This document shows, one piece after another, positions 3,298 to 32,529 of a stretch of DNA of 47,736 bases. The first letter of the stretch is position 1. Each line of letters begins with the position of its first letter. Source of the stretch: a virus. The stretch is from positions 1 through 47,736 of IMG/VR virus record IMGVR_UViG_3300027797_000044; one strand, 5' to 3'. The notes under the pieces are model-generated. The model was given only the letters and a program-made list of their open reading frames with translations. It made no database searches and had not been told where the DNA came from. The position numbers were made by a program, and so were the translations under genes.

Positions 3298-3548
3298 CTG
3301 CGATAACCCTGTCTCCACAGTGCCTCCGTGATAATTGCGGACATGTGCCTGACCTTACGCTCTGAGGCTCGGAGGTCGCCGATATGGACGCACTCGTGTA
3401 TAAGCGTGTCCATGCGCTCCCTTTCCGACCGGTGTTTCTTGTCGATAACGATTTTAAATAACTTTGCTCCGACATGGTATAGTTGCCCATCGTCTTTGTA
3501 TTTTTTTAGGTCTGCTTCAACTATCTTGAACTTCTTTTTTGGTTTCAT
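3294..3548 (-). CDS. Mini-zincin metallopeptidase
   Basis: The protein has 84 residues. The motif LIHECVH places H51, E52 and H55 as a classical HExxH zinc site. The downstream helix with Glu in SERKV is a candidate third ligand. It is far shorter than peptidases with a full catalytic fold but matches the size of small HExxH proteins common in phage genomes. The gene starts inside the end of the lipoprotein gene (32-base overlap). It may process a virion or lysis protein; the sequence does not say which. Confidence 0.65.
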   Translation of the reverse strand: MKPKKKFKIVEADLKKYKDDGQLYHVGAKLFKIVIDKKHRSERERMDTLIHECVHIGDLRASERKVRHMSAIITEALWRQGYRR

Positions 3549-4382: not shown

Positions 4383-7300
4383 TTACTTTGGCTTGAAGTC
4401 GTCCGGGGTCAAGGCGCCCTTTGTCTTGTCCGGAACCATTTTGCCCGTTACTTGTGGGAAATTGGTGGCTTGCACGGCAACAGCCCCAAGAACTGGGCTT
4501 GCGGCTGATGCGCCCGCAACTAAAGCGCCCTTTGCCACTGGAATAATTGCCTTTGCCAAACTTCTCTTTGAGTTAGACATGTCCTTGTCTTCGACGCTGG
4601 ACTCTATTGCCGAGAGTGCCGATCGGCCTAAATTGACGACTGACTGGCCGGTAGGACCACCTGGGGCTTGCTCGCGCTTGAGGGTCTTCATGGCTGCTTC
4701 AAACTTAGGGCCTAAAAGACCGGCGTAGGATATGGCATTGAGCCACTTAAGGAACTCCGGGTCTTTCTTGCGCTTTTGCGAAGCTTCGGTTGGGTAAAGC
4801 AAGTCCTTGAGTTCCAGTAGGCCTCGATAAGCCAATATAGACAGAGCGCCTATAACGACAGGCCCCAACATTCTAAGGCGATCATAAAGGGAGTACCTTT
4901 TGCCCGGAGGGCTGAAGGTCACAGACCGCTTAATCGTGTCGTACAATCGGGTGTTTACTTCTGCGGCATAGGCGTAACTGAAGTTCATCAACTGCAGGTA
5001 GGTCTTGCCTAACTCGGTGTCCTGGAAGACCGGCTTGTGGGCTCGGTTGGTGCGGACGCTAGACTGCACGGAGAAGCGGATCATAGCCTCCTGGTGAAGT
5101 TGGGCCATTTCGTCGTTCGCCGTCATAGCGGCCATGCGCTCGTTGCTGTTCATCTTGGCCAATTCTTCGCACCAAGCAGCAAACTCGGCATGCTTGGATG
5201 GGGGTACGCCAAGTTCATTCAGCTGGTCGGTCGCCGACTGCTTGGCATTAAGGCCAATCTTTGCCGTCCAGTGTGAGCCGCTGACCATCTCGGATATGCG
5301 AAGGATATAAGAGTATCCGATTGCATGCGAAGCTTGCTGTTTGGCCACCTCGGAGGCCTCCATTAGATTGGCCTTGTAGATGCGGTTGGTTAGCCAGCGG
5401 AAGCGTGGGTCCGCGTTGTCGGCGTCCATGTCGATCGAGTGCGTGGTCATCCATGCGTCCTCGAATGAGTTGTGGATGCTTCCAATCTCCTGGCCGTATT
5501 GAGTCCAGAACGTGTCGCCCATCTTTCTCTGCAGGTACGGAGAGAACGCTGCCAACTCACGCAGGAAGCGACCCCAAGTTTCAGCATAGGCTCGAAGCGT
5601 CGTCAAGGTGGCCCCAACTGGTCCGCCACCGGCTCTCATGCCCATTGTGATTGGCTCAACTAGGTTGTTGATGAAGCCCTTGCCCATGGCAGAAGCAGCA
5701 GTAAACAGCGTTATGGTATCGACGTAGTTTTGTGATGCCTTCCCTAGACTTTTAATTTCAACACCGGCAGCCTTCTTTACGAGATCCATCGTTTCCTCGA
5801 TAATAGGGTATGGCACACTATCTTTCTCCATGTCCTTGGCGTATCCAGACCACTTCTTGCCGTCATGGCCAAAGCGCCTTACGACTTCGGTTCTCTTGGC
5901 CGCAGATGATATGTACCTGGATACTACGCGGAACGGGTCATTGACCTGCCATTTGCGCATAATGGCCTGAGACTCTTTTCCGAACTTACGCTTCAGTAAT
6001 GGGCTTTCGTCCATGCTCTTTCTGTCGCCAAATATGGAGTCAAAGCTCTCTGCAGCGCCACCACGGACGTGCATGTTGTAGAGTTCCTTGGCTTTTTCTT
6101 CGGCTATTTCGGCAAGGCTGTCCTCGACGGACTCTGGATCGACCGCAAGAAGGTCGTTAAGGGCATCTTCATCCATCTTTAGGAGCTTTGCCTTATCTGC
6201 GTCGCTTAACTTGCTGAGTTCTATTTCGTAAGCCTGTTTTGCGTCCTTGATAAATGCGGTTCGATTGTCGCCGATACGAGGCGAGTCATAGACGGCAGGA
6301 AAGTAGTCTTCAATGGTGCCAAGTTTTTCGCCGGCTTCTGTCCGGTATTGGTGTAGTTCCGCTAGTAGCTTTTTAAGCCCTGTAGCAGCCGTACCCAGGG
6401 GGCCTCCAGTGATTGGGCGATACCCCGTAACCATGTCCGTAAGGGCTTGGTAAACCTCCTCGCGCTGCTGTCTAGCCGTTCCCTGGTCGCCGTCCTTAAA
6501 GCTAGACAACATGTCACGGAGCGGGTTCATAATCTTATTGAGGCGATTATGGTACTTCGTTCTGGCGGTCGATATGGCCGTTGGGAGGTCGCGCTCGAAC
6601 GCATTTGAGTCCGTTCCTGGACGAGCGTGAATCATATTGGCGATTAACTGTAGCGCCTTGCTGAACCCGTAACGCTTTGCGTTCTGGTGTGCCTTTGCCG
6701 ATATGCCCGAGAAGTATCGAAGGGTAAGAATATCCAGGGCGGTTCTTGCTGCCGTCTGGCTTTTACGGGGGGCGCTAAACAGATCAGGGTCTTCAGACTG
6801 CTCCGCAGAAGCGTCACGGACGGAATTTAGCGTGGTCGGATTTTCGTCCTCTGGGTCAATGTTTTCGTCAGGTTTAGGCAGGGTGTCCTGTACCTTTGTT
6901 TCGGCAGCAGGGTCGGTCATTTTGGTAGGCGGAGCCTTGCGCTGATACTCAGTTATTCGGCTTACGCCCTTTGCGTCTTTTGGCTTAATGCCGCGTCTCT
7001 TGGCTTCCTCTGGCGTGACACCCAAGTTTGGCGCAAGTCTGGTAAACATCTCCCATTCAAATTCCTTAAAGGTTGGGTCTTGCTTGGCTTGCTCGAATTC
7101 CTTTTCGGATATCGTGTCCTTGCCGGCGAAGCGGTCCTTACCTTTGTCTCCGAGGGCTAATTCGCGCTGGGAGTCGTCGCGCTGGCTTTGGAATATGTTG
7201 CTAGACTCGGTGTTTACGTCGTTTCCTGCAAATGCAGCCTTTATCTTGCGCGGATCGGCAAGAATATAGGAGTCTTGTCCGCCCCTCTTTCCGCCCTTAG

Positions 7301-10300
7301 CGGTGCGTAGGTCGGAATCGCTATACTTTATGGCATCTACGCCGTACTTTTTGAAAAGAGAATGTATGGAAGGGTGGATGAATATCTGCCATACGCTTGT
7401 TTGGAACCTGTTAAGTTCATCATCACGAGCTTCGTCAAACGCTTGCGTAAGCTCTTCCCTTAGTTCAGTTAGATCCAAGTTCTTGCCCTGGTTTATGCGT
7501 TCAACCTCGCTGATTATCTTGGCGATAAACTCGTCCTCACGCTTTACTATGTACTCGTCTGCGGTCAATCCATCTGGGTCGGCCTTGCGCATCTTATCTA
7601 TTACCGATCGAGAGTCTATGGAGTGGCCTATCTTGCTGATATCGACGATGTTCTTGGCGTTAATATACACCTGTACAACAGCGCCTGTAGTTCCTGCCGA
7701 TGGAAGCGACTTGTTGTGGTCCTCATGTGCGTACTGCGCGGCGTAGTCAGGGTCAGCTGCTACATGGAAAAGGCCATCTTCGCTCATGTTTGCATCAAGT
7801 GTTTCGTACGCACCACTTTGACCTCGATAAAGGGCGTGTTTAACGGACGAGTCCTTTACGAACGTCTTTATCTGCTCCGCTCGCTCAGGGCTCATCTTGT
7901 TACGGCCGAGTATATTTACAACAAACGTGCTTCCGTCGCCCTTGCGCACCATGGCTTCGCCAATCGGGTAGGAGGCCTCTGACTTATTGGTTTCTGGAGA
8001 AACCACGGGGTCTGCTTTTAACTTTCGATCACCTTGACTCATGAGAGTTGGTCCCCTGTCGTCCTTGCTTATGCCTCGTCCAGCCCTGGCCTTATCGCCT
8101 TCGTTAAAGGCAAATAAGTCGTAATGGGATGGGTCTATCTTGGATTTTAGGCTTGCTGATTGGAACACCTTTTTAGCGCGATTTGCAGCCGATTGCTTAA
8201 GGTCGCGGACAAACGCCGGATCGAGCTTTAGCGCCTCAAGGTCAACCGTTGGGCCGTTCTTATCGTGAAGTGCGTCAGTGTTGAAAACGTGGCTTATGCG
8301 TCCACGAACAAGCACTTCACCGTTCTTCCCGTATATCGGATGATCTATGCGGCCATACGATTCATACGAGTCAGGTATCCACTGCCCCTGATCGCCTTCT
8401 GGGTCAAGCCACTCTTGGTGGTCTGATAAGCCGTTATCGGAATACTTACCCGTCGTATTTGCCCCCTCAAACTGAACGCCCATCTTTGACACGGCCCATA
8501 AGTCTCCATACGAGGATATGTAGTCACCGTCATCAACCTGAACCGACGACTCGTTTGTGTCTTTTATGTCTATCGGTTTCCTGCGGTCTGATGATGTATC
8601 CGAAAGGTCTGGTTCTTCGTCATTTGAATGGCCTATGTCAAACCATGTAGGCATGCCGGTCTGGTCACGAACTGGCAATCCGTCTGACCCGATTTTCTGC
8701 CCTGGCTTTACGTTTCTGAAATAGTTTTCTCCCTCTGCGCCTTCTATGCGACTCATCTGCTGCTGGTCAGAGCCGAGCCCGCCCATGTTCGTGGAGCCTT
8801 CTTGGTCCGGGTTGTAGCGCCCTTCGGCAAAGTTCTTGAGTATCTTGGCGGCTATGTCCTTGCCGAATAACTGACGGAAGGTGACCTTGATGGTTTCCCA
8901 TAGGCCAGCCAACTTTTCCTTCCAATTCTTGGAGCGACCGAGATAGACCGGATCGCTGTTAAGTTGGCGCATAACGGTTTCCTTGAATTCTTCAGCAAAG
9001 TACTCGTCAGGGGTAGTAAGGCGGTAGGTTTCGTCCGTAAGGCGCAAGCGATACATCGTCGAACCCTTCGGGAAACCCTCCTTCTTGATTTCTTCGGGGG
9101 TAAGCTTGATCAGCAGGCCGGTCGGGTTGTCGAGGTTGGCGTTTGTGACCTGTTGCGGGGTGAAACGACGACGGGCCCAGTCCTTGCGGTCGGTCGCGCT
9201 TAGGAGCGTATCCAGGCCCTTGTTCTTCTTAAGGAAATCGACGCGCTTTTCGCGCATTTCCTTGAGCACCGCTTGGCGGTCGGCTTCGGGCAGGAAGCGC
9301 GTGATGTGGTGGGCTATTTCGTGAGCAGCAGTTTCCTCGAACCGACCGGAAAGTATGGCATCGTGGAATATGGTAATGATGCGGCTAATGGTCTTGTACT
9401 GGCCTTGGGCGCCTTCTGGACCACTGCGGATGTTCATCTTGACGCCCTCGAAGAACTGGGCGCCAATCTTGTTCATGATGCGAGTGATGCCCTCGATCTG
9501 CTTTGGGGTTATTCCACCCCGTAGGCGAAGTTCGTCGGTGACTCGGGAGACTATGCCAGCGTAGCCCTTTCGGCCTTCTGGATCGCCGGCACGGTTCTCG
9601 GCGGTCTGCTTCTTGCGGCGGTCGAGTTCGTCGGCCTTGCGGGCGTCAGCGTCTGGATCGCGCTGGCTCTTAAAGTCCCATTGTCCAAATGGTTTGAATT
9701 TTCCGTATTCATTTCCTGAGCTGTCCATAACCTCAGCAAATTCAATTCCAGTTTTCCCTTCACCGGTAGCCGCCGTAAACTTACTTATATTTTCAGTAAT
9801 ACTTACCGCATCACTAGCGTGTACCCCGTCACCAATATAGACAAATAGCTGACTTGCATTTGTGCGTTCTATTGCTGCTATAAGGTTTCCAAGCACCCCT
9901 GGCTGCTTTAGTTTTACCATTTGATCAGTAGTCATTGGTATTGCCCCTACAGGACGCGCCTTTCCGTCTAATAGTAACATTCCAGGCTTTCCTTCTAGTA
10001 ACACCTTGCTTGCGCTTAAGGCATCGCTGGCGTTCATTATTTCACCAAACGACAACGCGCCTTTTTTGGTGAACATTCGTTCCGTTATTTTAATTTTGAA
10101 TTTTGGAGTTTTTTGCGGAATTAATTTATCTGGGATTTGATTGCGTCCGGCACCAGGCGCAGATTGTTTGTCATTAATGTAAGCGTATTTATTGCCTGCA
10201 ATTGCAATAAGGCCTTTGTACTCTATCCCGGAACCTTCAAATAAGCTTCTAAATGTAACGCTAACGCCAATGTCTGCGCGGGATAATTGGGATGTATCGT

Positions 10301-13300
10301 TTGGATGGTTGTGAACTATCCACACTTTTGCGGCACCAGTTACGCCAAGCGCCTGCCCCATGAGCAGGACTGGATACATGTTGGCCGAAGATATAAAACC
10401 TATGCTATTTCTTCCTACATGGATAATCCGATCATCTTTATCCACAACTACTACGGCTGTGTTTTCCTGCGGGCGCTGAGCAAACCATTCACCAACGGCA
10501 ACGGCTACGTCTTCTGCGGTTCTCGCCTTATCCGTTCCGCTCATAACTACCTGGACCGTGGCCTGCTCAACGATATTAGATACCTTTCCGTTTATCTCGA
10601 CGGAGTGAATGATATCAATGGCGGGTACGGTGCTTGTTGCCACTTGCGCCTGATTGGATGCTATCTTTTGGGCGTCCTTTATTACTTCTTTCTTACTTGG
10701 GATCTTTTTGGGCTTGGCGTCACTGTTTTCCTCAACGTCCCGGCGGGAGAACGGATTGTCGCCCGTATCTGCATCTTCGTTAGGGGTGTAGAGGCGCTTC
10801 ACGCCGTAGTCCGTAGGACTGTCGGACTGGGCGGCTACGCCGCCTACGCCACCTTCTGGAGTTAGCATTTCGCCCCTGGCGGCTCTGGCTATGAGGTCCA
10901 TCAGGACGTCCGTATTGGCGTTGGTCGGGTCAACCTGCGTCCAGCCTCGTTCGGCAAGGGCCTGGGCTAAGTCACTAAGCATGCCGTCTGCGGCGTCCTT
11001 GAGGTTCTTCTTGTATTCCAGATCAGTTTCAGCGCGCTTAAGGTCAATCTTGCCGTAGCGCTTGGGAAGTCTGGCTAACTTTATGAAACGACCTTTGCCT
11101 ATTTGCTGGGCTAGGCCGAGTAGTTCCTGGTGGCCGAAAACCGCTGGAAGGGTGGGTATGGCTATCCTTCCGTTGCTTGATTTTGTAATGCCTTCAATGT
11201 CGGCAATCAGGTCGCCCTTAACTTCTTCTCCTTCTTCACCGAACTCAGCAGCAGCGCGCTCCTTATTGTCCTCTCTGGTGGCCAATTCACGCCCAACTGC
11301 GTCATACAAGTCCTCCCCGACTTCATCGGCCGTAAACTTGGCCATAAACTCATTTAGCGCATCGTCCGATATGATATCGAAATCAATCTCGTCCGTTTGC
11401 ATGCCAGAAAGAAAAGTGCTTTCGGCCTCAAACTGGGCGATCAGCTTCTCGGCCGCATCGCGTTTGGCGTTCCAGCCCTCCCCCTTGCTCATGTTCTTGA
11501 TAATGCCGGCGAGTTCTTTTCGGGCGGCGGTAACGTCGGCGGGCTCATTGTCCGTAAACGGCTTCAGGATGCTTTCCGCGTTGGCTTCCGACGTTCCAGC
11601 CTGGGCTTCGTAGGAGCTAATGGCGTCCATGACCTCCTTAACGGAGTATGTCTGAACAAACATGTCTGCGCTGCTTCGGCTTGCCCTGAAGACGTTTTCG
11701 CTGACAAGTTTTTTGAGCTTCTTGCGCTGGGTTTCGAGGCGCCGGTTGTCGCTTGGCTTGGACTTAAGGGCTTCCTTGACCGCCTTCATCTTGTCTAACA
11801 CAAACTGGCGAGCCTTGCGGGTATCCTCATTCGGGGACTCGTTAACGAGTTCCTGCTGGTCGATGATGCCACGATCCAGACCCTTGATGCCTTGAATGTC
11901 GGTGCGCGGGGCTTCGGCCTGGGTGGGCTTGGCTTCGCTTTCCACGCCTAGATCCTTGAGCATAGACTCGTACTCGCTTCGGGTTATGGTTCCCTGGTCG
12001 AACATCCTGTTAATACGATCAATGGATTTTTTCTTAGCTTCGGAGTCCTTGTCGGCTTGAGTCGGCTCTGCCTTATCGGGTTTAGCCTCTGGCTTTCCGA
12101 GTTGCTCGTTAAGTTGTTGGGCCATCTCATTGAGGGTGTCCGCAAGGTTGTTGAGTTCGTCGATAAGGTCGCTGCGCTCGCTGAATTGGTCCTCGCGGCC
12201 CATATCTTCAATGTTGCTGGCTTTATCCTCGTGCCTAGATGCCAGATCCTGGGCTTCGCTGGCCAACTCCAGTAGCTTCCCGACGTTTTCAGGGCTAGGG
12301 TTAGATTCGACGGCTTCAAGGGCTGCCTCAACCCTGGGTATAATTCCCTTGTTTCCGTTGACTTCTTTGTCCGACGACACGGTTCCCTGGGCGGCACCCT
12401 CAAGGCTGTCTTTAATTTCATCATGGAATCGCGCGCTTTGCTCCTCGATGATATCTTTTATTTGTGCCGTAGTGGCGCTCTCCGTTTCTGGGCTTATCGT
12501 GGCATCCACAGGCAGCTCCATGACTCGCTTGAGTTCATTCTTCGCCCAAGCCTTTCTGGATGAAACCTCATAATACGACGATATGACTCCCTTCAGCGCC
12601 AATATGTAATCCGATCGGCCAAGCATTGTAATTTTTACACCGCTTACGCCGGCTGGATCCTTGAATAATTGAGTGCTATTTTCTCTTTGAGCACTTTCAA
12701 AAGCATCCTTAATTAAAGCAGGCCTCGTTGTGTTTCCAAGTTTGTCGGCAACGTCCTTGATGGTGCCGCCAGCTTCTTTTATCCTTGCCAATATGTTACT
12801 AAGGTACCCTTGACCAAGTAGGGATTCCTTTGTTCGTTCTTTGTTGCTGATTAACAATTCATCAAGTTTTGCGTTAAGCTCAATCAATAGCTTACTTAAA
12901 GCGGCATTAACTTTTTTAGGAGGATTAAGACCGGCCTCGTATTTGGCGATGGTGTCCCGGAGCGTTTGCTGCTGTTGTGGGCTCTTGCCTGACTTCTCAA
13001 GCTTAGCCAGTTGGGTGCGGGCCTGGGCTACATAGGCGGGCTCCGTGCCGGCGGTGGTCAGTTCGGCCGTCGTGTCCGCCGGCTTGGCCTGAGTTTCGGT
13101 AGCGCTTCCGCCCGTCAGGTTAAACGTGTCAGAGGTGTCAATTAGCTCGCTCTGGCTGGAGCCGAGCTGGCGGGGCTTCTCGGCTGGTTGATTGATTTGC
13201 TCGTTCTTTGCCTGGTGAGCCTCGGCGAGATCAAGAAAAGCTTTAAACCTCTTGGCCATCTTGCCCGGCTTATTTGGCTTGTTCCAGTTAGGGCCATGCT

Positions 13301-16300
13301 CGTTAAGAGTGCCCTTCCTTAGAGCAGCAACTACATCTTCAATAGTAGTAAGCTCTTTCGGTATGATTATATCGGACCAATCAAGCCACAATGGAATTAT
13401 TGAACCATTTTTTCTTTTTGTTCCCGTGTCCTCGTGAAACTCTATCTCAATCGGCCCGTCATCAGTAACAAACTTCTTTCCGTCATTTCTTATCTTAATG
13501 CCTATCTGTATTACGTCACCCTTTTTGCTTTCGATCTGATTGGTAAGGTCTATAACATACATGTCACCTTTTACTTTTCCGGTATAGTGATTTGATATTT
13601 CGTCTTTAATGAAGGTAAGTCCTCCAATCCTTACAAGAGGCCCTTCGTATCTGAGCGGCTTTGGCTTGGTGGACTGATCTTTCGACTTAAGCTGCTTTGC
13701 CCTTTCCTCGATATTTACTCCAAGCTTCTTGGCCAACTCGTTTCTTTGCTTCCTATGAGACTTAGGGTTTCCTGAAAACTTTTCACTCCAGTCCATTATC
13801 TCGATGAGATGGTCCAGATATCTGCTCTCAGAAACCCATCCTTCACCTATAATCTTGTAGGGGGTTTCTTTTGATTTTTCGCCCTCAGACGACCGAACTT
13901 CAGGCGTTTCATCATCAGCGGCAGTAGGCTCCTGTTTTGCAGGCTTAACTTTTAACTTAAACCCCAGGATGGACTCGGCCTCGGCCACGGCTTCTTTCGT
14001 GCTGAGCCCTTCGGCGTTCTGTCTTGCTATATCTTTTTCAACTTCTACCGCCTCGTTGTCGCCGTCGCCGTCATATTCTTCAATGTTTTCGGCGTTTTTC
14101 TGGATTTTGTCAAGGATCGCCTTGTCCGCCTCGCTGTGCTTGACCACCTTTCTTTTCTCCTGGTCTATCTTCTTGATCTGCTCGGGCGTAAGAACATCCG
14201 ACTCCATAAGGTGACGAACCTTGGCTATCTGCTCCTGCTTTGATCCGTCTATGTCGGCCCTTATCCGGTAGTAGCGGTTGTTATTGGGGTCAAATACGAT
14301 GGATCCTTCGAGTCCTATCTCTCCGGCAGCTATGCGCTCAACGGCATAAGAGTTCTTCGGGGCCTGGCCCCACTCGATCTGCCACTTTCCGCGCTTAATC
14401 TGGATGATGCCGAAGGAAACCTTGTCGTACTTTCCGACTTCTCCGCCTACCTGTCCCGTGAATGGAACCTCCGTACCGTCAGGCAGCGTGGCCTTAATGC
14501 CGTTTACCATGTCGGACATTTGGGGCTCACCGAAGCTATGCCACGTCAATATGTCGCCGTACTGAGGGCGATTATCCTTGTCCTTGGTGTCGAACTTAAT
14601 CTTGGTTGGCTTTTCGGTAAGCGAACCTTCCTTAATGGCACCCTTTACAGGTCTAAGAACGTAAGGGTTATTTGCGTTTGAGATCTCAAGTTCGCTTCCG
14701 GCGGCCTTTCTTCCTATTGCTTCGCTATCCTTAGGGTCAGAAGGATTTTCTGCGCCAAGCGGAAGTGCAGCCATGCCATTAAGCTGGTTAATAAGGCTAT
14801 CAATTTCGGATGCGTCAAATCGCCCATCTGAAAACTTGATTTCCTTGCCAGCCTTATGGAGAGGATTGCCCTGCGCGTCCAAAGTATCCTTTAAGCTTAC
14901 GACTACAAACTTTTTGCCCTCTTGGTTGACCTTGTAACTACCGGTTGGGTCTACATATCCATCTCCGGATTTAGTGTATCCTGCGTCTTTTAGCTTTGCT
15001 TCGTACCCGTCGGCATCGGCCGGTTTCTGTGTTGGCTTTTCGGCGGTTTGTGCTCGAGGTGCAACCGGTGCAGGAGGTTGGCGAACGGCATCCCGGTTGA
15101 AGCCAGGGGCGTATTGCTCGGCTGCAATACTCTTAAGCGTCGAACGTATTTCACCCTTATCCAATTCGGAAACGCCCGAGCCTGGCTGGGACGCGACATA
15201 CAGGGCAATCTTGCCTGCGTTGACTCGCTCATCCCAGGTAATGCCCTGCATCATGCGCTTGACTGCGTTGCCAAGGAGATCCTTTGAGAACTTCTCGATG
15301 AAGTTTTTAAGTCCTTGCTGGTTATAGGCCTCTGGCTTGTTTGAACCAGTACGCAGGAAGTTGGCCATCTGTTCGTAGAACTGCTTTCGGTAAGCCATTT
15401 CAATGGATTGCGATGGCATGTACTTGGTGTCCTTGTCAGCATAGGAGTGCTCCATTTGCTTGTTGACCATGCGAGCAAGCCCTTCGGCCGTAGAGACGGC
15501 TAGATTTTGATCCTTGGTTGATAACTGCGTAAGTATCTCCCCGGTGGAGTTAACAACGCGCTCAACAAATACTGGGTCGGCGGGCTTTAAGCCGCCGGTA
15601 CGGCGGTGCGCTTCCGCGTTAAGGCCAACGACGCTATTGGCAGCCTGTGCTGGCTCCATGGCAGCGTGGGCGGTAAGCAAGCCCTGTTGGTCAAGGGTTT
15701 CGTGCGCAGGGATGTGCTGCGGGACAAAGTTGACCTGGCCCTGGCCGTCAGCAGCAACGGTTACGGCGGGAGCCGTGCCTGGATTGGTGCTCGGAGCGGC
15801 AGGGGTTGCCGTGGGTGGGGTTACTGCGGTTGGCGCAACCGGTGCAGGCAAAGGATTTGAACCTGCGGTTGTCGATTGATTGGTAGGACCTACGGCGGGA
15901 GCCGGCTTGCTATCAAATAGCTTTTGCGCTTCTTCAAGAGAGTTAGCCGCGCCAATCTTACTCAAGTTTCCTGGATTTTTTGGATCAGTTCTAAAGACTT
16001 CAAATAAACCTCCCTTCTCCATGATTACGCCGTCACCTTTATCGTTCCTATACTGGTTAGGTCTATCGGCTCGAGCGGTCCATTTAGAGGTTTGAGCAGG
16101 CGCTTGAGCCTGGGGTTGTGCGGTCTGTGGCTGTGTAGCTGGGGCGCTGGCTCGGGCCGCCTCGCGAGCGACTCGGGCTGCATATTCAGGTGTGCCCTCT
16201 ACATACGATGGGGGCTTTGGTCGTCCGTTTTGATAGTGCGTCGCTGAGTATTTATTTCTCCATTCCGTGTAGGCTTCGCTCCACTTCTGTCTGTCTTCAA

Positions 16301-17969
16301 AGGTTGCTTCATTTCCAGGGAATACGGGCGACGGTTCAACGTTTTCTACGACGGCTTGTGCAGGCGCAATAGGATTGCCGTTAAGGGCAGCCTTAAAGGC
16401 TGCAGCGGCTGCAAGTGTATTTGGGTGATTTGGGCCAAACGTGTTGAACGCGTCGCGCAAGACTTCGTACTGGAACGCTGACGGATGGTCAGGCGGAGGT
16501 ACCAGATACTCGTCTTCTACGCTCGAGGCCTGCACTGGGACTCCGGCGGTCGGAGCAGGGGTTACTGGTGCCGCAGTTGGGGTGACGGGGACTGCAGGAG
16601 CGGCGGGCGCCACACCTGGAAGGGGAGGTGGAGTTGCCTGAGAGCTTCTAGCTGCTGCCACAAGTGCTGCCTGCGCCGCTGCTTCGGCTGGAGTTTGTGC
16701 GGTGGCCGCGTTATATGCCTTCTTGCCGCCGGCCTGGATTGAATTCATCAGGCCCGTGGTAATAAGACCAGCCGATCCACCAAGGAGTCCAGACGTGACT
16801 GGCTGAACCCAGTCAAACGACTTGTTGTTACCAGCTAATATAGATGCCAACTGAGAGGTGACGCTTACGGTTGCTTCTTCTGCCGCTTCCTTTGCACCTT
16901 CGACCAAATACGGGACGCCTTTCTTGATAAGGAATTTGCCGACTGGGTGTTTAACTGCGGTCTTTAATTCCTTCATGCCAGGTATGAGCGAGAACACACC
17001 CGTAGTTGCGCCTTCGGCTACGCCGGCAGCAGTGCCCGTCTTTACGGCAAGATCAAAGGCATTGGAGAACTCGTCTGGATTGGCGTTGGCGTATGCACGA
17101 ACAGCGTTCTCATCCTTAGGATCTAATTTTTTGGACCTTAGGTATTCTTCAAAGTTTTGGTTTATGTTACTCAGCGTAGCATCTCGGCCCGCCATGGCAC
17201 CCTGGGCTGCCGCCCCAGTGCCAGTAATTGCGTTGCTTACGCCTGGGCTTGGTGTTCGTCCGCCTCGTGCAGCAAACGCTTTTGCTCCAAGTTCTAGTGC
17301 GCTTAAGGCAAGGGACTTAATTGTAGGCAAGGAGCTTTCGGCAGCTGCTTGGGTGCCTATGCTTAGGGCATTGAGGCCGTAGTCACCAAAGAATGTCTTT
17401 GCGGCATTGTTTAGGTCGCCCGCTTCATTGTACTTCTGGAATTGCTTGTAAGTAGGGGTTACAGACTCATTTCTACTAAGCGCTGCCTCTAATTCGTCCT
17501 TTTCCGTTTTGGCTGCCTTTAATTTATCTTCGTTTTCAGTAAGCCATCTGGTTTGAAATTGCTTTTCAGTGTTAAAATTAGCAAGCGCCTCTGATTCAGT
17601 TAAACCCTTGCTGGCCTGTTCGGGAGAAAGGCCAGGGAATTTTTGATCTAACAACTTTTTGAGTCGAACGTTTCTTTGAACCTGTCTGTTAAAGTCGTTG
17701 CTGGCTTTTGCGGCATCGGTGCCATACCAAGAGCGACCGATAGCGTTCCCAATGGACGACACATATCCAGTCGTTTCAGCATTAGGATCAAGCGACTGGC
17801 CCGCCTTGCGCTGACCGCCGCCTATGCCCTTAAGGCCAGTGGGATCAAACTGGTCAAAGAAGTTTCCGCCTTGCGTGGCGTCCGGTTGGCCAACCGGCTT
17901 GATTTCTTGATTACCGACTTCCGGCTTTTTGGCTGGCTCGTCGAATTGGTCGAAATAATTTTTGGTCAT
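4383..17969 (-). CDS. Giant polyvalent virion/ejection protein (JAB peptidase, zincin, ADP-ribosyltransferase-like)
   Basis: The protein has 4,528 residues. The N-terminus has two Phe-Asp-Gln-Phe-Asp motifs (about 5-9 and 38-42), then helical and glycine-rich hydrophobic segments and Pro/Ala-rich linkers (about 440-490, 690-730 and 970). A JAB/RadC-like metallopeptidase has HNHPNDTSQLSRAD with H2553, H2555, S2563 and D2566. A zincin has HEIAH at 2883-2887. An ADP-ribosyltransferase-like module starts near YRG 3381 and ends in a Ser-Tyr-Ile-Leu-Ala-Asp-Pro stretch. The last 800 residues are mostly helical. Such multi-enzyme 'polyvalent' proteins are known from phages and conjugative elements and are thought to be injected with the DNA. 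Its place after the gp13-gp15-like genes is that of T7 gp16, so I infer co-ejection. The start overlaps the previous stop as ATGA. Confidence 0.85.
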   Translation of the reverse strand: MTKNYFDQFDEPAKKPEVGNQEIKPVGQPDATQGGNFFDQFDPTGLKGIGGGQRKAGQSLDPNAETTGYVSSIGNAIGRSWYGTDAAKASNDFNRQVQRNVRLKKLLDQKFPGLSPEQASKGLTESEALANFNTEKQFQTRWLTENEDKLKAAKTEKDELEAALSRNESVTPTYKQFQKYNEAGDLNNAAKTFFGDYGLNALSIGTQAAAESSLPTIKSLALSALELGAKAFAARGGRTPSPGVSNAITGTGAAAQGAMAGRDATLSNINQNFEEYLRSKKLDPKDENAVRAYANANPDEFSNAFDLAVKTGTAAGVAEGATTGVFSLIPGMKELKTAVKHPVGKFLIKKGVPYLVEGAKEAAEEATVSVTSQLASILAGNNKSFDWVQPVTSGLLGGSAGLITTGLMNSIQAGGKKAYNAATAQTPAEAAAQAALVAAARSSQATPPPLPGVAPAAPAVPVTPTAAPVTPAPTAGVPVQASSVEDEYLVPPPDHPSAFQYEVLRDAFNTFGPNHPNTLAAAAAFKAALNGNPIAPAQAVVENVEPSPVFPGNEATFEDRQKWSEAYTEWRNKYSATHYQNGRPKPPSYVEGTPEYAARVAREAARASAPATQPQTAQPQAQAPAQTSKWTARADRPNQYRNDKGDGVIMEKGGLFEVFRTDPKNPGNLSKIGAANSLEEAQKLFDSKPAPAVGPTNQSTTAGSNPLPAPVAPTAVTPPTATPAAPSTNPGTAPAVTVAADGQGQVNFVPQHIPAHETLDQQGLLTAHAAMEPAQAANSVVGLNAEAHRRTGGLKPADPVFVERVVNSTGEILTQLSTKDQNLAVSTAEGLARMVNKQMEHSYADKDTKYMPSQSIEMAYRKQFYEQMANFLRTGSNKPEAYNQQGLKNFIEKFSKDLLGNAVKRMMQGITWDERVNAGKIALYVASQPGSGVSELDKGEIRSTLKSIAAEQYAPGFNRDAVRQPPAPVAPRAQTAEKPTQKPADADGYEAKLKDAGYTKSGDGYVDPTGSYKVNQEGKKFVVVSLKDTLDAQGNPLHKAGKEIKFSDGRFDASEIDSLINQLNGMAALPLGAENPSDPKDSEAIGRKAAGSELEISNANNPYVLRPVKGAIKEGSLTEKPTKIKFDTKDKDNRPQYGDILTWHSFGEPQMSDMVNGIKATLPDGTEVPFTGQVGGEVGKYDKVSFGIIQIKRGKWQIEWGQAPKNSYAVERIAAGEIGLEGSIVFDPNNNRYYRIRADIDGSKQEQIAKVRHLMESDVLTPEQIKKIDQEKRKVVKHSEADKAILDKIQKNAENIEEYDGDGDNEAVEVEKDIARQNAEGLSTKEAVAEAESILGFKLKVKPAKQEPTAADDETPEVRSSEGEKSKETPYKIIGEGWVSESRYLDHLIEIMDWSEKFSGNPKSHRKQRNELAKKLGVNIEERAKQLKSKDQSTKPKPLRYEGPLVRIGGLTFIKDEISNHYTGKVKGDMYVIDLTNQIESKKGDVIQIGIKIRNDGKKFVTDDGPIEIEFHEDTGTKRKNGSIIPLWLDWSDIIIPKELTTIEDVVAALRKGTLNEHGPNWNKPNKPGKMAKRFKAFLDLAEAHQAKNEQINQPAEKPRQLGSSQSELIDTSDTFNLTGGSATETQAKPADTTAELTTAGTEPAYVAQARTQLAKLEKSGKSPQQQQTLRDTIAKYEAGLNPPKKVNAALSKLLIELNAKLDELLISNKERTKESLLGQGYLSNILARIKEAGGTIKDVADKLGNTTRPALIKDAFESAQRENSTQLFKDPAGVSGVKITMLGRSDYILALKGVISSYYEVSSRKAWAKNELKRVMELPVDATISPETESATTAQIKDIIEEQSARFHDEIKDSLEGAAQGTVSSDKEVNGNKGIIPRVEAALEAVESNPSPENVGKLLELASEAQDLASRHEDKASNIEDMGREDQFSERSDLIDELNNLADTLNEMAQQLNEQLGKPEAKPDKAEPTQADKDSEAKKKSIDRINRMFDQGTITRSEYESMLKDLGVESEAKPTQAEAPRTDIQGIKGLDRGIIDQQELVNESPNEDTRKARQFVLDKMKAVKEALKSKPSDNRRLETQRKKLKKLVSENVFRASRSSADMFVQTYSVKEVMDAISSYEAQAGTSEANAESILKPFTDNEPADVTAARKELAGIIKNMSKGEGWNAKRDAAEKLIAQFEAESTFLSGMQTDEIDFDIISDDALNEFMAKFTADEVGEDLYDAVGRELATREDNKERAAAEFGEEGEEVKGDLIADIEGITKSSNGRIAIPTLPAVFGHQELLGLAQQIGKGRFIKLARLPKRYGKIDLKRAETDLEYKKNLKDAADGMLSDLAQALAERGWTQVDPTNANTDVLMDLIARAARGEMLTPEGGVGGVAAQSDSPTDYGVKRLYTPNEDADTGDNPFSRRDVEENSDAKPKKIPSKKEVIKDAQKIASNQAQVATSTVPAIDIIHSVEINGKVSNIVEQATVQVVMSGTDKARTAEDVAVAVGEWFAQRPQENTAVVVVDKDDRIIHVGRNSIGFISSANMYPVLLMGQALGVTGAAKVWIVHNHPNDTSQLSRADIGVSVTFRSLFEGSGIEYKGLIAIAGNKYAYINDKQSAPGAGRNQIPDKLIPQKTPKFKIKITERMFTKKGALSFGEIMNASDALSASKVLLEGKPGMLLLDGKARPVGAIPMTTDQMVKLKQPGVLGNLIAAIERTNASQLFVYIGDGVHASDAVSITENISKFTAATGEGKTGIEFAEVMDSSGNEYGKFKPFGQWDFKSQRDPDADARKADELDRRKKQTAENRAGDPEGRKGYAGIVSRVTDELRLRGGITPKQIEGITRIMNKIGAQFFEGVKMNIRSGPEGAQGQYKTISRIITIFHDAILSGRFEETAAHEIAHHITRFLPEADRQAVLKEMREKRVDFLKKNKGLDTLLSATDRKDWARRRFTPQQVTNANLDNPTGLLIKLTPEEIKKEGFPKGSTMYRLRLTDETYRLTTPDEYFAEEFKETVMRQLNSDPVYLGRSKNWKEKLAGLWETIKVTFRQLFGKDIAAKILKNFAEGRYNPDQEGSTNMGGLGSDQQQMSRIEGAEGENYFRNVKPGQKIGSDGLPVRDQTGMPTWFDIGHSNDEEPDLSDTSSDRRKPIDIKDTNESSVQVDDGDYISSYGDLWAVSKMGVQFEGANTTGKYSDNGLSDHQEWLDPEGDQGQWIPDSYESYGRIDHPIYGKNGEVLVRGRISHVFNTDALHDKNGPTVDLEALKLDPAFVRDLKQSAANRAKKVFQSASLKSKIDPSHYDLFAFNEGDKARAGRGISKDDRGPTLMSQGDRKLKADPVVSPETNKSEASYPIGEAMVRKGDGSTFVVNILGRNKMSPERAEQIKTFVKDSSVKHALYRGQSGAYETLDANMSEDGLFHVAADPDYAAQYAHEDHNKSLPSAGTTGAVVQVYINAKNIVDISKIGHSIDSRSVIDKMRKADPDGLTADEYIVKREDEFIAKIISEVERINQGKNLDLTELREELTQAFDEARDDELNRFQTSVWQIFIHPSIHSLFKKYGVDAIKYSDSDLRTAKGGKRGGQDSYILADPRKIKAAFAGNDVNTESSNIFQSQRDDSQRELALGDKGKDRFAGKDTISEKEFEQAKQDPTFKEFEWEMFTRLAPNLGVTPEEAKRRGIKPKDAKGVSRITEYQRKAPPTKMTDPAAETKVQDTLPKPDENIDPEDENPTTLNSVRDASAEQSEDPDLFSAPRKSQTAARTALDILTLRYFSGISAKAHQNAKRYGFSKALQLIANMIHARPGTDSNAFERDLPTAISTARTKYHNRLNKIMNPLRDMLSSFKDGDQGTARQQREEVYQALTDMVTGYRPITGGPLGTAATGLKKLLAELHQYRTEAGEKLGTIEDYFPAVYDSPRIGDNRTAFIKDAKQAYEIELSKLSDADKAKLLKMDEDALNDLLAVDPESVEDSLAEIAEEKAKELYNMHVRGGAAESFDSIFGDRKSMDESPLLKRKFGKESQAIMRKWQVNDPFRVVSRYISSAAKRTEVVRRFGHDGKKWSGYAKDMEKDSVPYPIIEETMDLVKKAAGVEIKSLGKASQNYVDTITLFTAASAMGKGFINNLVEPITMGMRAGGGPVGATLTTLRAYAETWGRFLRELAAFSPYLQRKMGDTFWTQYGQEIGSIHNSFEDAWMTTHSIDMDADNADPRFRWLTNRIYKANLMEASEVAKQQASHAIGYSYILRISEMVSGSHWTAKIGLNAKQSATDQLNELGVPPSKHAEFAAWCEELAKMNSNERMAAMTANDEMAQLHQEAMIRFSVQSSVRTNRAHKPVFQDTELGKTYLQLMNFSYAYAAEVNTRLYDTIKRSVTFSPPGKRYSLYDRLRMLGPVVIGALSILAYRGLLELKDLLYPTEASQKRKKDPEFLKWLNAISYAGLLGPKFEAAMKTLKREQAPGGPTGQSVVNLGRSALSAIESSVEDKDMSNSKRSLAKAIIPVAKGALVAGASAASPVLGAVAVQATNFPQVTGKMVPDKTKGALTPDDFKPK

Positions 17970-19351
17970 GGATTACGGCCCAGCACAGCTTTAGCCGCGC
18001 CAGGACCGTACTTAGCATCGAACTCTTTTGCAAGAGCAGGATTGTCAACCAAAGCCTTTTTAGCACCTGCATTTGGAACTGGCCGAGCGGGCTGTGCTCC
18101 GGTGATCTGAGAAGGCATTGGGCCACGCATGGCTCCCCTTACGGCATCATCCGGGGTTACTGGAGGCCCTACCATGGGCGCTTGTGACGCAGCAGCAGGA
18201 GGTGGACCAAATACCTTTTCCCTCATACTCTTAATATCCAACGGCTTGCCTCCAGATTGAATAGTTACATCGCCTCCCCAAGATGCATCTTTCGACGTCA
18301 ACCCTTCTTGCATTATGTACTTTTGTACGGCCACATGCGCAGGATCATTTGGGAACGCCGCTATGGCAGCTGATGCTATAATTTGCGCGTCCTGTGGATT
18401 TAAACTTTCTCCCGCGTACCCGAGTGCGTTGGTTACGGCAGCAAGGGCGTCCACTGCCCGCTTGTCATTTCGTGCCATATCCAGCGAATTGCTGGATCCG
18501 CTACTACCGCCAGCAGAAGCTTTGATTCTGGCCACGGCCTCTTTGCCTTCGTTTTGGATGCGGGCAACCGCTGTTGGGGTTGGATTACCTGCCGTAAACG
18601 GCAGGCCAGAAGTGCCTTTACCTTCCTGACCTGGCTGCAGGCCTATTGCGCCCATGGCTGCCTTATTTTGAGGCGCAAGTATGCCAGCCAAATCAACCCC
18701 CTCTGGGGCTTGTGATGCGCCGATAAACGCGCCAACAGGCAGGTTCATGCGGGCGTCCTCGGGGGCGACGAAATCAACACCGCCAGAAGCAGGGAGGATC
18801 GGGCGACCTAATTCGTCGTGTTGGACCAACGTTTGACCCGGGTTCAGTACGGTAGGAAGCAATCGTTTGTTCGCGGCCGTTGCGTTTGCGCCGCCTGCCG
18901 CCAGACCAACCCCAACATCGGTTGGGTTTGCGTTCAGGTTGTGGCCGGCGATCAGCGCTGGCATGTCCTTTGGGCCCGTCTTTCCTGCTACAGCCGTGCC
19001 GAGTGCCGTCAATCTGGGTAGATTCTTGGGATTGACGATCATGCCCTTGCCGTCAGGAGATGGCATCCAATTGGACGGGTCGCTCAGGAACTCCTTTTGC
19101 TGTTCAGCGCTAAGGTTCGAGAAGGATACTCCGGCCGTTTCCGCAACAGCCTTGCCCTTGTTTGCTTCGTGTAGGCCTGTTCTGGCAACAAGTTCCGCAA
19201 CGGTGGCTGGAATGACCTTGTTGGTTCGGGCCTCATTGTAAGCCCGCTCGGCCTGCAGGTTGGCGCCCTTGGCAGCCTGTTCAGGATCGAACCCGAACAA
19301 GCCTTTGGACTTGCTTAGAAGTGGATCAACCCATGAGTAGTCTTGTGCCAT
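17966..19351 (-). CDS. Internal virion (ejection) protein, T7 gp15-like position
   Basis: The protein has 461 residues. A helical N-terminus (AAKGANLQAERAYNEAR) is followed by low-complexity Ala/Gly/Pro-rich sequence and a helical C-terminus. There are no enzymatic motifs. It lies between the two gp14-like genes and the giant protein, where T7-type phages encode gp15, part of the ejected trans-envelope channel. The leader ATAAAATAACTACAATG has no Shine-Dalgarno site. Sequence alone does not prove homology; the assignment is positional. Confidence 0.55.
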   Translation of the reverse strand: MAQDYSWVDPLLSKSKGLFGFDPEQAAKGANLQAERAYNEARTNKVIPATVAELVARTGLHEANKGKAVAETAGVSFSNLSAEQQKEFLSDPSNWMPSPDGKGMIVNPKNLPRLTALGTAVAGKTGPKDMPALIAGHNLNANPTDVGVGLAAGGANATAANKRLLPTVLNPGQTLVQHDELGRPILPASGGVDFVAPEDARMNLPVGAFIGASQAPEGVDLAGILAPQNKAAMGAIGLQPGQEGKGTSGLPFTAGNPTPTAVARIQNEGKEAVARIKASAGGSSGSSNSLDMARNDKRAVDALAAVTNALGYAGESLNPQDAQIIASAAIAAFPNDPAHVAVQKYIMQEGLTSKDASWGGDVTIQSGGKPLDIKSMREKVFGPPPAAASQAPMVGPPVTPDDAVRGAMRGPMPSQITGAQPARPVPNAGAKKALVDNPALAKEFDAKYGPGAAKAVLGRNP

Positions 19352-19356
19352 TGTAG

Positions 19357-19977
19357 TTATTTTATGTTCCAGCCAGTTCCTTTGGGCTGCATAGCGCCGT
19401 ACATGTTGACCATGGAGCCGACGCCGACGCCAAGTTTGCCTGCGGCCGCTAGGCCGGAGCCAGCTTGTTTGGCGGCGTCTAATTCAGATTGATTGGCATT
19501 AAGGGATCCGCCCATTCGGTTTGCGATTAGCCCCTGGCGGCGGGCAAAGTCCAGGTTCATCAGGGACGAGCCTATCTGGGCGTCGCCAAATCCTGCGGCA
19601 AGCGCTCGACTGGCGTTTTCTACGGATGCGGTTGAGCCTGCGGCTGCGCCGCGAACGGCAGAGTCGCTGGAAACGACCCTTGGGGTTCCGCCTACAGAGG
19701 CGATAGGGGCGACATACGGGGCAGAGGCTACGTTTGCTTCGCCGGCCGCAATTCGGCCTTCAGTAGAAGCCTTCATGGCTTTTTCGACTTCATCTACGCC
19801 CTGCTTCTTGAGTGCTTGATTAAAGGTGGCGTCCGACTCCTGCTGCATCCCGAGTTGGCGCTTTCGTTCTGCGTCGCGCGCTTGCATAATGGCCTGCTGT
19901 GACTTGTTAGCAGCCTGAGACTGGGCGTAAGTGCCTGCGGCCGTAACGGCCAAACCGATTGCCATTGGATTGCACAT
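19357..19977 (-). CDS. Internal virion protein, T7 gp14-like (copy 2)
   Basis: The protein has 206 residues. It begins Met-Cys-Asn-Pro followed by an Ala/Gly/Val hydrophobic segment (about 5-20) and a long Gln/Ala/Lys-rich helix. The C-terminal half is Gly/Ala/Ser-rich. A Met-Cys start followed by a membrane-prone stretch is typical of T7 gp14-type ejection proteins. It shares this start and its exact length with the preceding gene, though the sequences differ. Start and previous stop overlap as TAATG. Confidence 0.55.
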   Translation of the reverse strand: MCNPMAIGLAVTAAGTYAQSQAANKSQQAIMQARDAERKRQLGMQQESDATFNQALKKQGVDEVEKAMKASTEGRIAAGEANVASAPYVAPIASVGGTPRVVSSDSAVRGAAAGSTASVENASRALAAGFGDAQIGSSLMNLDFARRQGLIANRMGGSLNANQSELDAAKQAGSGLAAAGKLGVGVGSMVNMYGAMQPKGTGWNIK

Positions 19978-20615: not shown

Positions 20616-21092
20616 TTAATTTATGTTTGTTTTGTCATTCGTCCAGCTATAAACGTGGAAAGTATCTCCATTCTTTCCGAGCATTTTGAGGGAAGCCTCT
20701 CTGGTTGCCCCCAGATACTCGAGCCACCGGTGGGCGGTGTCATGACCCTCCATGGATCTGCACTCAGCCCTAAGCCAATCTGTGCCTTTTATGGACGGTA
20801 TTACGATCCGCTTGATGAACTTTGTAACTTCCGACGAAACCTCGTCCCATCGGTCGGTTGCGAACATCCAAACCTGCCACACCCCTGGCCAACAGGCTAT
20901 AGCGCCAAAAGCAGCAACAGGTATTCCGTCATTTGCCATGGAAATCCACCCGAAACTACCCTTTGCCATGATGCAATCAACCAGATCCTCGGGATTATCG
21001 TCCCATCTGGTAGCAAAGACCTCTTTTTTGTCAATTTCCCGCATGTTATCGGCAACATAAAGTAATCCAGCCTCGTTTAGTTCACGAAGCAT
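20616..21092 (-). CDS. GNAT-fold protein like T7 internal virion protein A (gp13)
   Basis: The protein has 158 residues. The order of elements fits a GNAT acetyltransferase fold: an N-terminal helix, a beta stretch with 'GIPVAAFGAIACWPGVWQVW', a helix and 'WLRAECRS' near 104-111. A C-terminal 'RWLEYLGA' segment is typical of the last acetyltransferase motif. T7 gp13 and many podoviral homologues (DUF2833) have this fold and take part in virion assembly. The canonical acetyl-CoA loop is not obvious, so catalysis is uncertain. Start and previous stop overlap as TAATG. Confidence 0.7.
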   Translation of the reverse strand: MLRELNEAGLLYVADNMREIDKKEVFATRWDDNPEDLVDCIMAKGSFGWISMANDGIPVAAFGAIACWPGVWQVWMFATDRWDEVSSEVTKFIKRIVIPSIKGTDWLRAECRSMEGHDTAHRWLEYLGATREASLKMLGKNGDTFHVYSWTNDKTNIN

Positions 21093-23923: not shown

Positions 23924-24624
23924 TAGGATCTATCGTCTCGAGTGTAACGGCCACCAATGATGCGCAGGCGTTCGCCACGATCAAGGCCACCGCCGTAGAT
24001 AAAGCGGTCATACTTGACGCCCTTGCCCTTCATGCGGGCGTAGTGCGTGGTTGCCTGGGCGAGTTTAGCCTGAGCGTCTGCGGCCTTCGTGCGAGCAAGC
24101 ACTTCGGCAGCCGAGAATAGAACGATAAGGTTGTCGTCTAATTCTGCCGTATCAGTAGGCAGGTTGAGATTAGACAATTTCTTGATAGCCTTAAAGCGCA
24201 CCTTCTGACCGGCCGAACTGGGCACAGGCCAAACTTCAAACTGGTCATTCTCGTAGTGACGCCAGCGAACAACAGGTTCTGACTTGTTGCCTGCAATATC
24301 AGAGTCCTGGAAGTTGTATTGCTGCGGGCCAATGCCGTACTCCAGGTTGTGCCAGATATCGCCATACTTTATGTGTGCCGATGAAATGTTATCGGGGTCT
24401 ATATCGACACCGAAACTATAGTACCGCTGACTGGCAACGAGGTTGGTGTCTCGCTCTATGTAAGCAAAATCCCAATCGTGGTCAGCCCAAAGGCGCTGCT
24501 GGGTGCGACGTAGCAGGTGGTCATACTGGTCAATAGTATTGACCCCCATGCCCACGTTGGAGGATGCGCCGATCTCGGCGCGGAGCATTTCCCGCAGCTC
24601 AAGAAGGGTTGTTCCTCGGGCCAT
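23923..24624 (-). CDS. Head-tail adaptor / tail tubular protein A
   Basis: The protein has 233 residues. An N-terminal helix pair (LLELREMLRAEIG) comes first, then 'RTQQRLWADHDWDF', a segment typical of podoviral gp11-type adaptors, which read 'Q..L....DWPF'. Beta segments and a C-terminal helix with several Ala/Lys repeats follow. It lies between the capsid and nozzle genes, as expected for the adaptor ring between portal and nozzle. Confidence 0.75.
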   Translation of the reverse strand: MARGTTLLELREMLRAEIGASSNVGMGVNTIDQYDHLLRRTQQRLWADHDWDFAYIERDTNLVASQRYYSFGVDIDPDNISSAHIKYGDIWHNLEYGIGPQQYNFQDSDIAGNKSEPVVRWRHYENDQFEVWPVPSSAGQKVRFKAIKKLSNLNLPTDTAELDDNLIVLFSAAEVLARTKAADAQAKLAQATTHYARMKGKGVKYDRFIYGGGLDRGERLRIIGGRYTRDDRS

Positions 24625-25039: not shown

Positions 25040-26125
25040 TTAGACCGCGACGTAGATGCCAGAGCTGTTGAGGCGCTTGGCAACCGTACCGCCCGTCCAC
25101 GTCATCGACTTATAGATGGCGTAAACGTTCTCCGGACGAGCCGGATTGTGGATCTTCTTGTCTTCACCTTCCATGACGTACAACTGCATGGCATCATTAT
25201 CAATGATGTACGCATAGTTGGTACGGGTGGTTTCGCCAACGGCGTAACCAGGCACGGTGGCGGAGTCAAGGGTCGGGTCATACATGAACTCACCAATACC
25301 CTGGAGGGAAATGGTGCCGATCTGGATGTCGAAGCCCTTGGAGAAGCCGGACTGGGTGTAGAGGCCCTTCGAGTGGATCTCCGCTTCAAGCTTCTGGAGG
25401 AAGCCCGAACCGCAGACAATCGTGCCAGGCTTACCGCCGAAGCGGGTCAACTGGCGGACTTCCGAACGAAGACCGTCGATAATGTTGGTTTGGCCAGCTG
25501 CGTAAGTAAACTTAGCAGCGCGGTTACGCCAAGCAGGCTGGAGAGCACGGTCAATACCGCCGGTGATACCGGTAGCATTGAGATCCGCGCCGCCAGTGAT
25601 TGCAGCATTAGGACGAATGTACTTCGAGATACCCGCAAAGATATTAGCGCTTTGCGTACCGTCCAACCAGAGCATTTCGTTGAAGCCACGAGCCCAACCT
25701 TCCGCCATGTCATCCATCTTGGCCTTTAGAATGTTGGTCAAGACCGTGATATCGCGGTTGGAGTGCTTCGAGGTCGATTCGCCAGTGGCAGAATCGGTGA
25801 CGGAGATACCGTCATGCTTCAATTCCGTGAAGGTCACGGAAAGGCCAGCATGCAACTCTGCCCACGGAAACTTAATGCGCTTCGTGTTGGCAGGATTTTG
25901 GTAGCTGACAGCTTGGTTGTGGGTGTAGCCCACGATGGAGGTCGTGTAGTCAAACACGATCGGGAGGTCGATAAAACCCTTACCACCAGGGAAAGTCTGC
26001 TGGCGCTTCGTGAGAAGGTTGAGCAGGGGCTTGTTCTGGATGGTCTGGGCCATAGCGTCGCCCTTGACGTAGAAGTCGAGAGCGGAATTGGCGATGTTTT
26101 CAAGTTCGCCGACTGAGAAGGCCAT
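25040..26125 (-). CDS. Major capsid protein
   Basis: The protein has 361 residues. It lies between scaffold and adaptor genes and is followed by a strong terminator, as is usual for the most expressed virion gene. The sequence is balanced alpha/beta with a long helix near 85-110 (NILKAKMDDMAEGWARGFNE) like the spine helix of HK97-fold subunits. A C-terminal 'KSMTWTGGTVAKRLNSSGI' segment is also of capsid type. No prohead protease gene is seen near it, so maturation cleavage is not expected from context. The leader AACTATAAACTACTATG is A-rich without a Shine-Dalgarno site. Confidence 0.85.
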   Translation of the reverse strand: MAFSVGELENIANSALDFYVKGDAMAQTIQNKPLLNLLTKRQQTFPGGKGFIDLPIVFDYTTSIVGYTHNQAVSYQNPANTKRIKFPWAELHAGLSVTFTELKHDGISVTDSATGESTSKHSNRDITVLTNILKAKMDDMAEGWARGFNEMLWLDGTQSANIFAGISKYIRPNAAITGGADLNATGITGGIDRALQPAWRNRAAKFTYAAGQTNIIDGLRSEVRQLTRFGGKPGTIVCGSGFLQKLEAEIHSKGLYTQSGFSKGFDIQIGTISLQGIGEFMYDPTLDSATVPGYAVGETTRTNYAYIIDNDAMQLYVMEGEDKKIHNPARPENVYAIYKSMTWTGGTVAKRLNSSGIYVAV

Positions 26126-26147
26126 AGTAGTTTATAGTTTTTTAAGG

Positions 26148-27212: not shown

Positions 27213-27228
27213 AGTGGGAAAATGTCAA

Positions 27229-29340: not shown

Positions 29341-29355
29341 TTGTGTAAAGTGTTA

Positions 29356-32527: not shown

Positions 32528-32529
32528 TT

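Follow-up and report, generated by a model that had tools for sequence, protein, structure and literature searches.

A probable polyvalent-type ejection protein of 4,528 residues carries exchangeable cargo modules in a short-tailed phage

Results

The largest gene of the window (the whole 47,736-nt stretch of viral DNA analyzed here) probably encodes a polyvalent-type ejection protein, in which a conserved chassis is combined with exchangeable cargo modules that would be injected together with the DNA. Specifically, the C-terminal chassis and the N-terminal block would make up a virion ejection protein in the position of T7 gp16, and between them would lie a cargo chain of a RadC-type JAB module, a zincin-like module, a module termed mid3, an ART-like module, and further unnamed modules. 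On the synteny and homology given below, the giant protein is very likely packaged in the virion and ejected; it would travel inside the head and pass into the host along with the DNA, after which each module would act against its own target, and by analogy early action in the host is rather likely. Recombination at the module joints would swap the cargo around an unchanged chassis, as is expected of an arms race.

The giant gene closes a T7-like virion block

We found that the giant protein is encoded on the minus strand by a single open reading frame (ORF) with an ATG start and no internal stop codons, which accounts for 13,587 of the 47,736 nt (28.5%) and starts four bases within the end of the upstream gene. 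Because the ends of the record share a 161-bp overlap (99.4% identity) and the junction is unbroken in a sister phage, the record is an essentially closed circular genome, and the share of 28% given in the initial annotation is right. The phage is of the podovirus type (short-tailed), with an essentially circularly closed genome of 47.7 kb. The coordinates of all features are collected in Table 1.

Table 1. Features of the giant gene and of the virion block (window coordinates; residues refer to the giant protein)
Feature	Residues	Coordinates	Strand	Basis
Giant polyvalent-type ejection protein gene (predicted), 4,528 aa	1-4528	4383..17969	-	Open frame; homologues in IMG/VR phages
Conserved N-terminal block	1-588	16206..17969	-	95% nt identity to sister phage L002; dN/dS 0.22
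Replaced cargo segment	977-1589	13203..15041	-	No nt homology in L002; flanks 92-97% identical
Block B, conserved module before variable slot, no assigned function	2061-2421	10707..11789	-	HMM matches in L002, L006, L004, L030, L016
Junction box FSRRD	2407-2411	10737..10751	-	Pattern scan; equivalent box in L002, L006, L016, L046
RadC-like JAB module	2463-2761	9687..10583 (Pfam RadC core 10182-10520)	-	PF04002; E2502, H2553, H2555, S2563, D2566
Junction box FKSQRD, JAB/zincin joint	2766-2771	9657..9674	-	Pattern scan; FKSLRD at equivalent L046 joint
Zincin-like module (H2883, E2884, H2887, E2989)	2771-3074	8748..9659	-	Invariant in 11 sequences; homologues in LPD38/ART-PolyVal giants
mid3 module	3080-3310	8040..8732	-	HMM map; cleanly absent from L002 and L006; present in L016, L019, L023, L040
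Junction box MSQGD, before ART-like module	3310-3314	8028..8042	-	MSEGD at equivalent L019 joint
ART-like module (YRG 3381, LFHVAADPDYAAQYA, GGQDSYILADPRKIKAAF)	3330-3600	7170..7982	-	Conserved in L002 and L006; weak ART-PolyVal likeness
Junction box FQSQRD, after ART-like module	3593-3598	7176..7193	-	Pattern scan
C-terminal ejection chassis (putative), ~790 aa	3738-4528	4386..6758	-	In all relatives; matches Microcystis phage and Kochitakasuvirus virion proteins
461-aa protein, gp15 position		17966..19351	-	Position; 459-aa gene at equivalent place in Mae-Yong1326-1
gp14-like internal virion protein		19357..19977	-	PF24072 T7_gp14 E 1.4e-4, under curated cut-off
Internal virion protein, nozzle-like protein (943 aa), tail adaptor		20616..24624	-	phrog_308 E 6e-15, phrog_511 E 2e-7; PF24175 adaptor E 1.6e-8
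Major capsid, scaffold position, portal, terminase large subunit		25040..30924	-	PHROG matches

In the direction of transcription, the genes for the terminase, the portal, the scaffold position, the major capsid, a small protein, and the tail adaptor are followed by those for the nozzle-like protein, the internal virion protein, a 206-aa protein, the gp14-like protein, the protein in the gp15 position, and the giant. Microcystis phage Mae-Yong1326-1 has a closely similar gene order, with its own giant (UUJ74515) last in the block. Both the preceding gp14-like and gp15-position genes and this synteny bear out the earlier placement of the gene in the gp16 slot of a T7-like virion block. The agreement with gp16 is one of position alone, since Pfam and PHROG searches detected neither sequence similarity to T7 gp16 nor a lytic transglycosylase domain in the giant protein. 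Ejection is presumed as for T7 gp16, which is ~1,318 aa long; the window's protein is 3.4 times longer, and threading an intact chain of more than three times that length would be demanding, which counts against the proposed mechanism.

The chassis was found in every relative returned by the chassis search. It matches the Mae-Yong1326-1 giant (hhalign E 7e-25) and the "virion structural protein" of Pseudomonas phages KPP25 and R18 (Kochitakasuvirus; 20% identity, E 4e-5), proteins which differ from the window's giant in being about half its length (2,441 aa in Mae-Yong1326-1). The Mae-Yong1326-1 giant further differs in having two other HExxH motifs and LPD1, and no JAB or ART of the window type was detected in any of these proteins. 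LPD38 (PF18857) was rejected as the identity of the chassis, with no Pfam match and an hhalign probability of 0.5%. Neither a profile search with the chassis nor a phmmer search with the whole giant protein returned a match in the PDB, no relatives of the chassis or of the zincin-like module were found in 84,980 cellular genomes, and no near nucleotide match to the virion block (18.0-32.0 kb) was found in cultured phages. In two relatives, L041 (6734-12301) and L043 (7196-12301), the giant is only ~1,700-1,860 aa long, and upstream of it lies a separate open frame of ~1,320-1,350 aa, such that a small giant goes with a large protein in the gp15 slot.

Three conserved motif sets lie in the cargo chain

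Three motif sets had been noted in the protein, and all were recovered at the residues given for them: HNHP at 2553 with S2563 and D2566, HEIAH at 2883-2887, and YRG at 3381 with SYILADP at 3567. Sequence conservation indicates that they are not chance occurrences, given the RadC profile match, the invariance of HExxH together with a downstream Glu, and a YRG-to-SYILADP block that is 65-97% conserved in two relatives. To the largest part of the giant protein no enzyme could be assigned; matches to SHOCT, PDE4, and tautomerase in Pfam all fell below the cut-off and were set aside. For the JAB, zincin-like, and ART-like modules alike, protein matches in cultured phages were absent or only weak.

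The JAB module is real by sequence, its catalytic set is complete, and its family is RadC. Specifically, Pfam RadC (PF04002) matched residues 2484-2596 with an E-value of 2.4e-12 (47.3 bits vs a curated cut-off of 22.1), and the five residues of the JAMM set listed in Table 1 are invariant in nine copies that share 24-58% identity with the window. The JAB profile also matched the solved RadC structure 2qlc (E 1e-6) and, weakly, the archaeal Rpn11-like structure 6fjv (E 0.028). Iyer et al. (2017, PMC5512222) make the case that a groove for the ubiquitin tail is missing from RadC JABs, whose substrates are more probably nucleic acids or nucleotides. The initial annotation of a JAB peptidase therefore holds for the JAB and its metal ligands, whereas the word "peptidase" is not established for a module of this type; by analogy, action on nucleic acids, nucleotides, or a conjugate is more likely than general peptidase activity. 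The segment after the RadC core (9687-10170, residues 2601-2755) resembles a second, degenerate JAB half; comparison of the two halves by hhalign over 16 copies gave an E-value of 4e-4 and a probability of 36%. A tandem pair of JAB copies occurs in the N-terminal half of the giants of six relatives (L019, L022, L023, L027, L036, and L040), and HNHP is missing from the second copy in L019, L023, and L040.

For the zincin-like module, H2883, E2884, H2887, and the downstream E2989 are shared without exception by 11 relatives, the most divergent at 18% identity, with E2989 lying within YFAEEF, 102 residues past the HExxH helix. More distant relatives of the module belong to phage giants of ~2,100-3,700 aa; all three zincin-bearing giants examined have LPD38, one also has ART-PolyVal, and two have ParB-like domains (LPD38 E 2e-35, ART-PolyVal E 4e-18). 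Since these domains mark recognized polyvalent proteins, homology of the HExxH module to those of such proteins is supported, and its membership in the zincin group rests on that homology. The fold was not confirmed by structure prediction: the AlphaFold model of the module alone (pLDDT 63.6) was helical, with HExxH and the later Glu both in predicted helices, and resolved no sheet such as the three-stranded one of the zincin fold. Searched against the PDB, this low-confidence model gave no structure match, and its sole viral match was a relative. A model spanning the zincin-like, mid3, and ART-like modules (876 aa, eight sequences) was uninformative (pLDDT 36.8), and the zincin profile returned one irrelevant match in the PDB. 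Of the proposed zincin, the invariant motif and the homology stand.

The ART-like module, which is kept in L002 and L006 only, is probably an ART judging from its sequence. Its conserved block has an ART-looking order of LYRGQ, GLFHVAADPDYAAQYA, VVQVYINAKN, and GGQDSYILADPRKIKAAF, and its C-terminal signature aligns with that of an ART-PolyVal in L064 (DQDVWIALEPEQIKSATGN); the best match of the module, a weak one (E 0.1), was to a profile built from two ART-PolyVal sequences and covered the same signature. The module had no Pfam match, no significant profile match, and no match of its profile in the PDB. The sequence of strand 1 is LYRG in each of the three copies, with Arg3382 where the polyvalent HYD2 clade has His; the Tox-ART-HYD2/ART-PolyVal signature (His, Tyr, and Asp in strands 1, 2, and 5, respectively) is therefore not the one present. 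Of the earlier reading as an ART-like domain, only the resemblance of the C-terminal signature to ART-PolyVal is borne out.

Cargo modules are exchanged between close relatives

Comparable parts of the sister phage L002 and the window share 94-98% nucleotide identity, with exceptions at the tail fibre, a 127-bp gap, and the interior of the giant gene, where 4,150 nt (30.5% of the gene) have no nucleotide match in L002. The tail fibre gene (30910-32529) is the other large region replaced between the two phages. Within the giant gene, the JAB alleles of the two phages are 66% identical between flanks at 86-97%, and mid3, which is either cleanly present or cleanly absent among relatives, has no nucleotide match in L002. 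In L006, the JAB slot holds an ART-PolyVal (E 7.5e-5, below the cut-off), for which no match was found in phages or plasmids.

More distant relatives point the same way. In L046, the JAB and zincin-like modules follow each other as they do in the window and are 42% identical to the window's, on a chassis at only 26%, and the L046 zincin-like module is 74% identical to that of L016 (sisters, support 99/99), while the chassis of these two are 29-31% identical. This conflict between the zincin and chassis trees implies that modules move between chassis. The values of dN/dS for modules alignable with L002 (0.12-0.27, among close relatives) indicate that the modules are maintained by purifying selection. 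It had been suggested that the full domain order may be undescribed; the arrangement is new, but it is one among many, and the order is not fixed, shifting as it does between close relatives.

Short peptides recur at the module joints

Four short peptides, which we term junction boxes, were located at joints in the C-terminal half of the giant protein; the pattern for the window's lineage, FxS[QR]RD, was chosen after inspection, and the count is small. In L046, boxes occur at all three joints (MFASRRD, FKSLRD, and VMESRRD), and in L040 the box is SED. In the giants of L019, L023, and L024, SEGD is the commonest 4-mer, with 12 copies each vs no more than 5 for any shuffled 4-mer. It is confined to the giant ORF (as checked in L019 and L023) and splits the giants into segments mostly of 126-406 aa, few of which are related, with the chassis following the last box. 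Box identity was 0.79 within a protein vs 0.35 at the same joint across lineages (permutation P 1.5e-4, for a small set read by eye). Boxes repeated to the same degree were not found in LPD38 giants, which limits the strong form to the window's giant-protein family. In a further group (L020, L021, L022, L027, and L036), a recurring YDDGEN starts a repeated domain and is often followed by one or two residues and IP; no HExxH was present in the sequence of these giants that was examined.

Synonymous codons vary between box copies about as they do elsewhere in the gene, with a slight bias in some copies (Ser, P 0.009; Glu, P 0.016). This variation means that the peptide itself is conserved, which implies something that recognizes it; codon use does not support repetition at the DNA level as the chief origin of the boxes. 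The boxes would fit either polyprotein cleavage sites or binding sites.

A reading of the boxes as binding motifs (e.g., for encapsidation or unfolding) or as neutral linkers homogenized by cassette copying, with the protein working uncut as T7 gp16 does, is a serious possibility, though short of probable. The boxes lie exactly at the points of cassette exchange, the slight codon bias is in keeping with copying, and N4 virion RNA polymerase, an HExxH-bearing giant packaged unprocessed (Iyer et al. 2017, PMC5512222), offers a precedent for an uncut protein. However, the other synonymous codons follow the background, such that recent DNA copying would not explain most of the likeness between boxes, and neutral linkers need no shared sequence.

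Somewhat doubtful is the reading as a polyprotein, in which the protein's own zincin, or another phage protease, would cut at the boxes in the prohead or after injection and free separate enzymes. It would account for boxes at the joints of the C-terminal half here and at all those of L046, for the division of the SEGD-bearing chains into mostly non-homologous, domain-sized segments, and for boxes that resemble one another within a protein, diverge across lineages at a given joint, and are encoded by different codons; self-processing by zincins has moreover been proposed, citing P1 DdrB (Iyer et al. 2017, PMC5512222). Against it stand the unprocessed N4 protein, the L022 group, which lacks HExxH although its YDDGEN motif recurs, and the post hoc choice of a window pattern with four copies; the boxes are candidate cleavage sites. 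Self-cleavage by the zincin at these sites is a tentative proposal, and it is similarly unlikely that such giants are true polyproteins whose lineage-own cleavage peptide co-evolves with the embedded zincin. Very improbable is a chain of non-catalytic relics that merely fill the ejection channel: it agrees with the loss of HNHP from some second JAB copies and with the large part of the protein to which no enzyme was assigned, but full catalytic sets are invariant in the main JAB and zincin-like copies at 18-30% identity, and dN/dS is low (0.12-0.27). For an ejection protein with exchangeable cargo, the reading we prefer, the zincin-like module would most likely trim or release modules, with a role as an effector as the alternative.

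Relation to known systems

Polyvalent proteins have been known as a class since 2017 (Iyer et al., PMC5512222), and the initial annotation likened the giant to them, a comparison upheld by its domain mix, its place in the virion block, and its homologous zincin. We found several disparate enzyme domains in one very large chain (RadC JAB and zincin-type, with ART as probable), encoded beside virion genes according to both the block annotation and the Mae-Yong1326-1 synteny; unlike LPD38-bearing polyvalent proteins, the window's giant has a different chassis. N4 virion RNA polymerase (Schitoviridae) is comparable in that it is very large, is ejected, and has an HExxH module ahead of an extensive C-terminal region, which is helical in N4 (PMC12633501), but no RNA polymerase domain was found in the window's giant.

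The class is known, and what appears to be new is the lineage-specific joint peptide repeated within one protein and the exchange of cargo between near-identical phages, neither of which the initial annotation had noted. A term search of Iyer et al. (2017, PMC5512222) returned neither a junction motif nor such exchange, and no report of a junction motif was found in open-access text, which covers only part of the literature. The 2017 paper draws a polyprotein analogy and proposes that polyvalent proteins are cut by their own zincins, without giving cut sites (Iyer et al., PMC5512222); the lineage-specific boxes would supply explicit, testable candidates, and a 12-fold SEGD predicts 13 fragments of known size, which makes the test easy. 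The pair of near-identical phages with different cargo shows that the modules carried by a predicted virion ejection protein can change fast, alongside the tail fibre, and ejection proteins would then be a place to seek early counter-defence enzymes.

Downstream of the giant gene, weak holin-like matches (2618-2956 and 3517-4230; PF16083 E 6e-5, PF07332 E 0.0015) mark a likely lysis region, and an AAA_24 ATPase (PF13479, E 1e-38) is encoded at 818-1684 on the minus strand.
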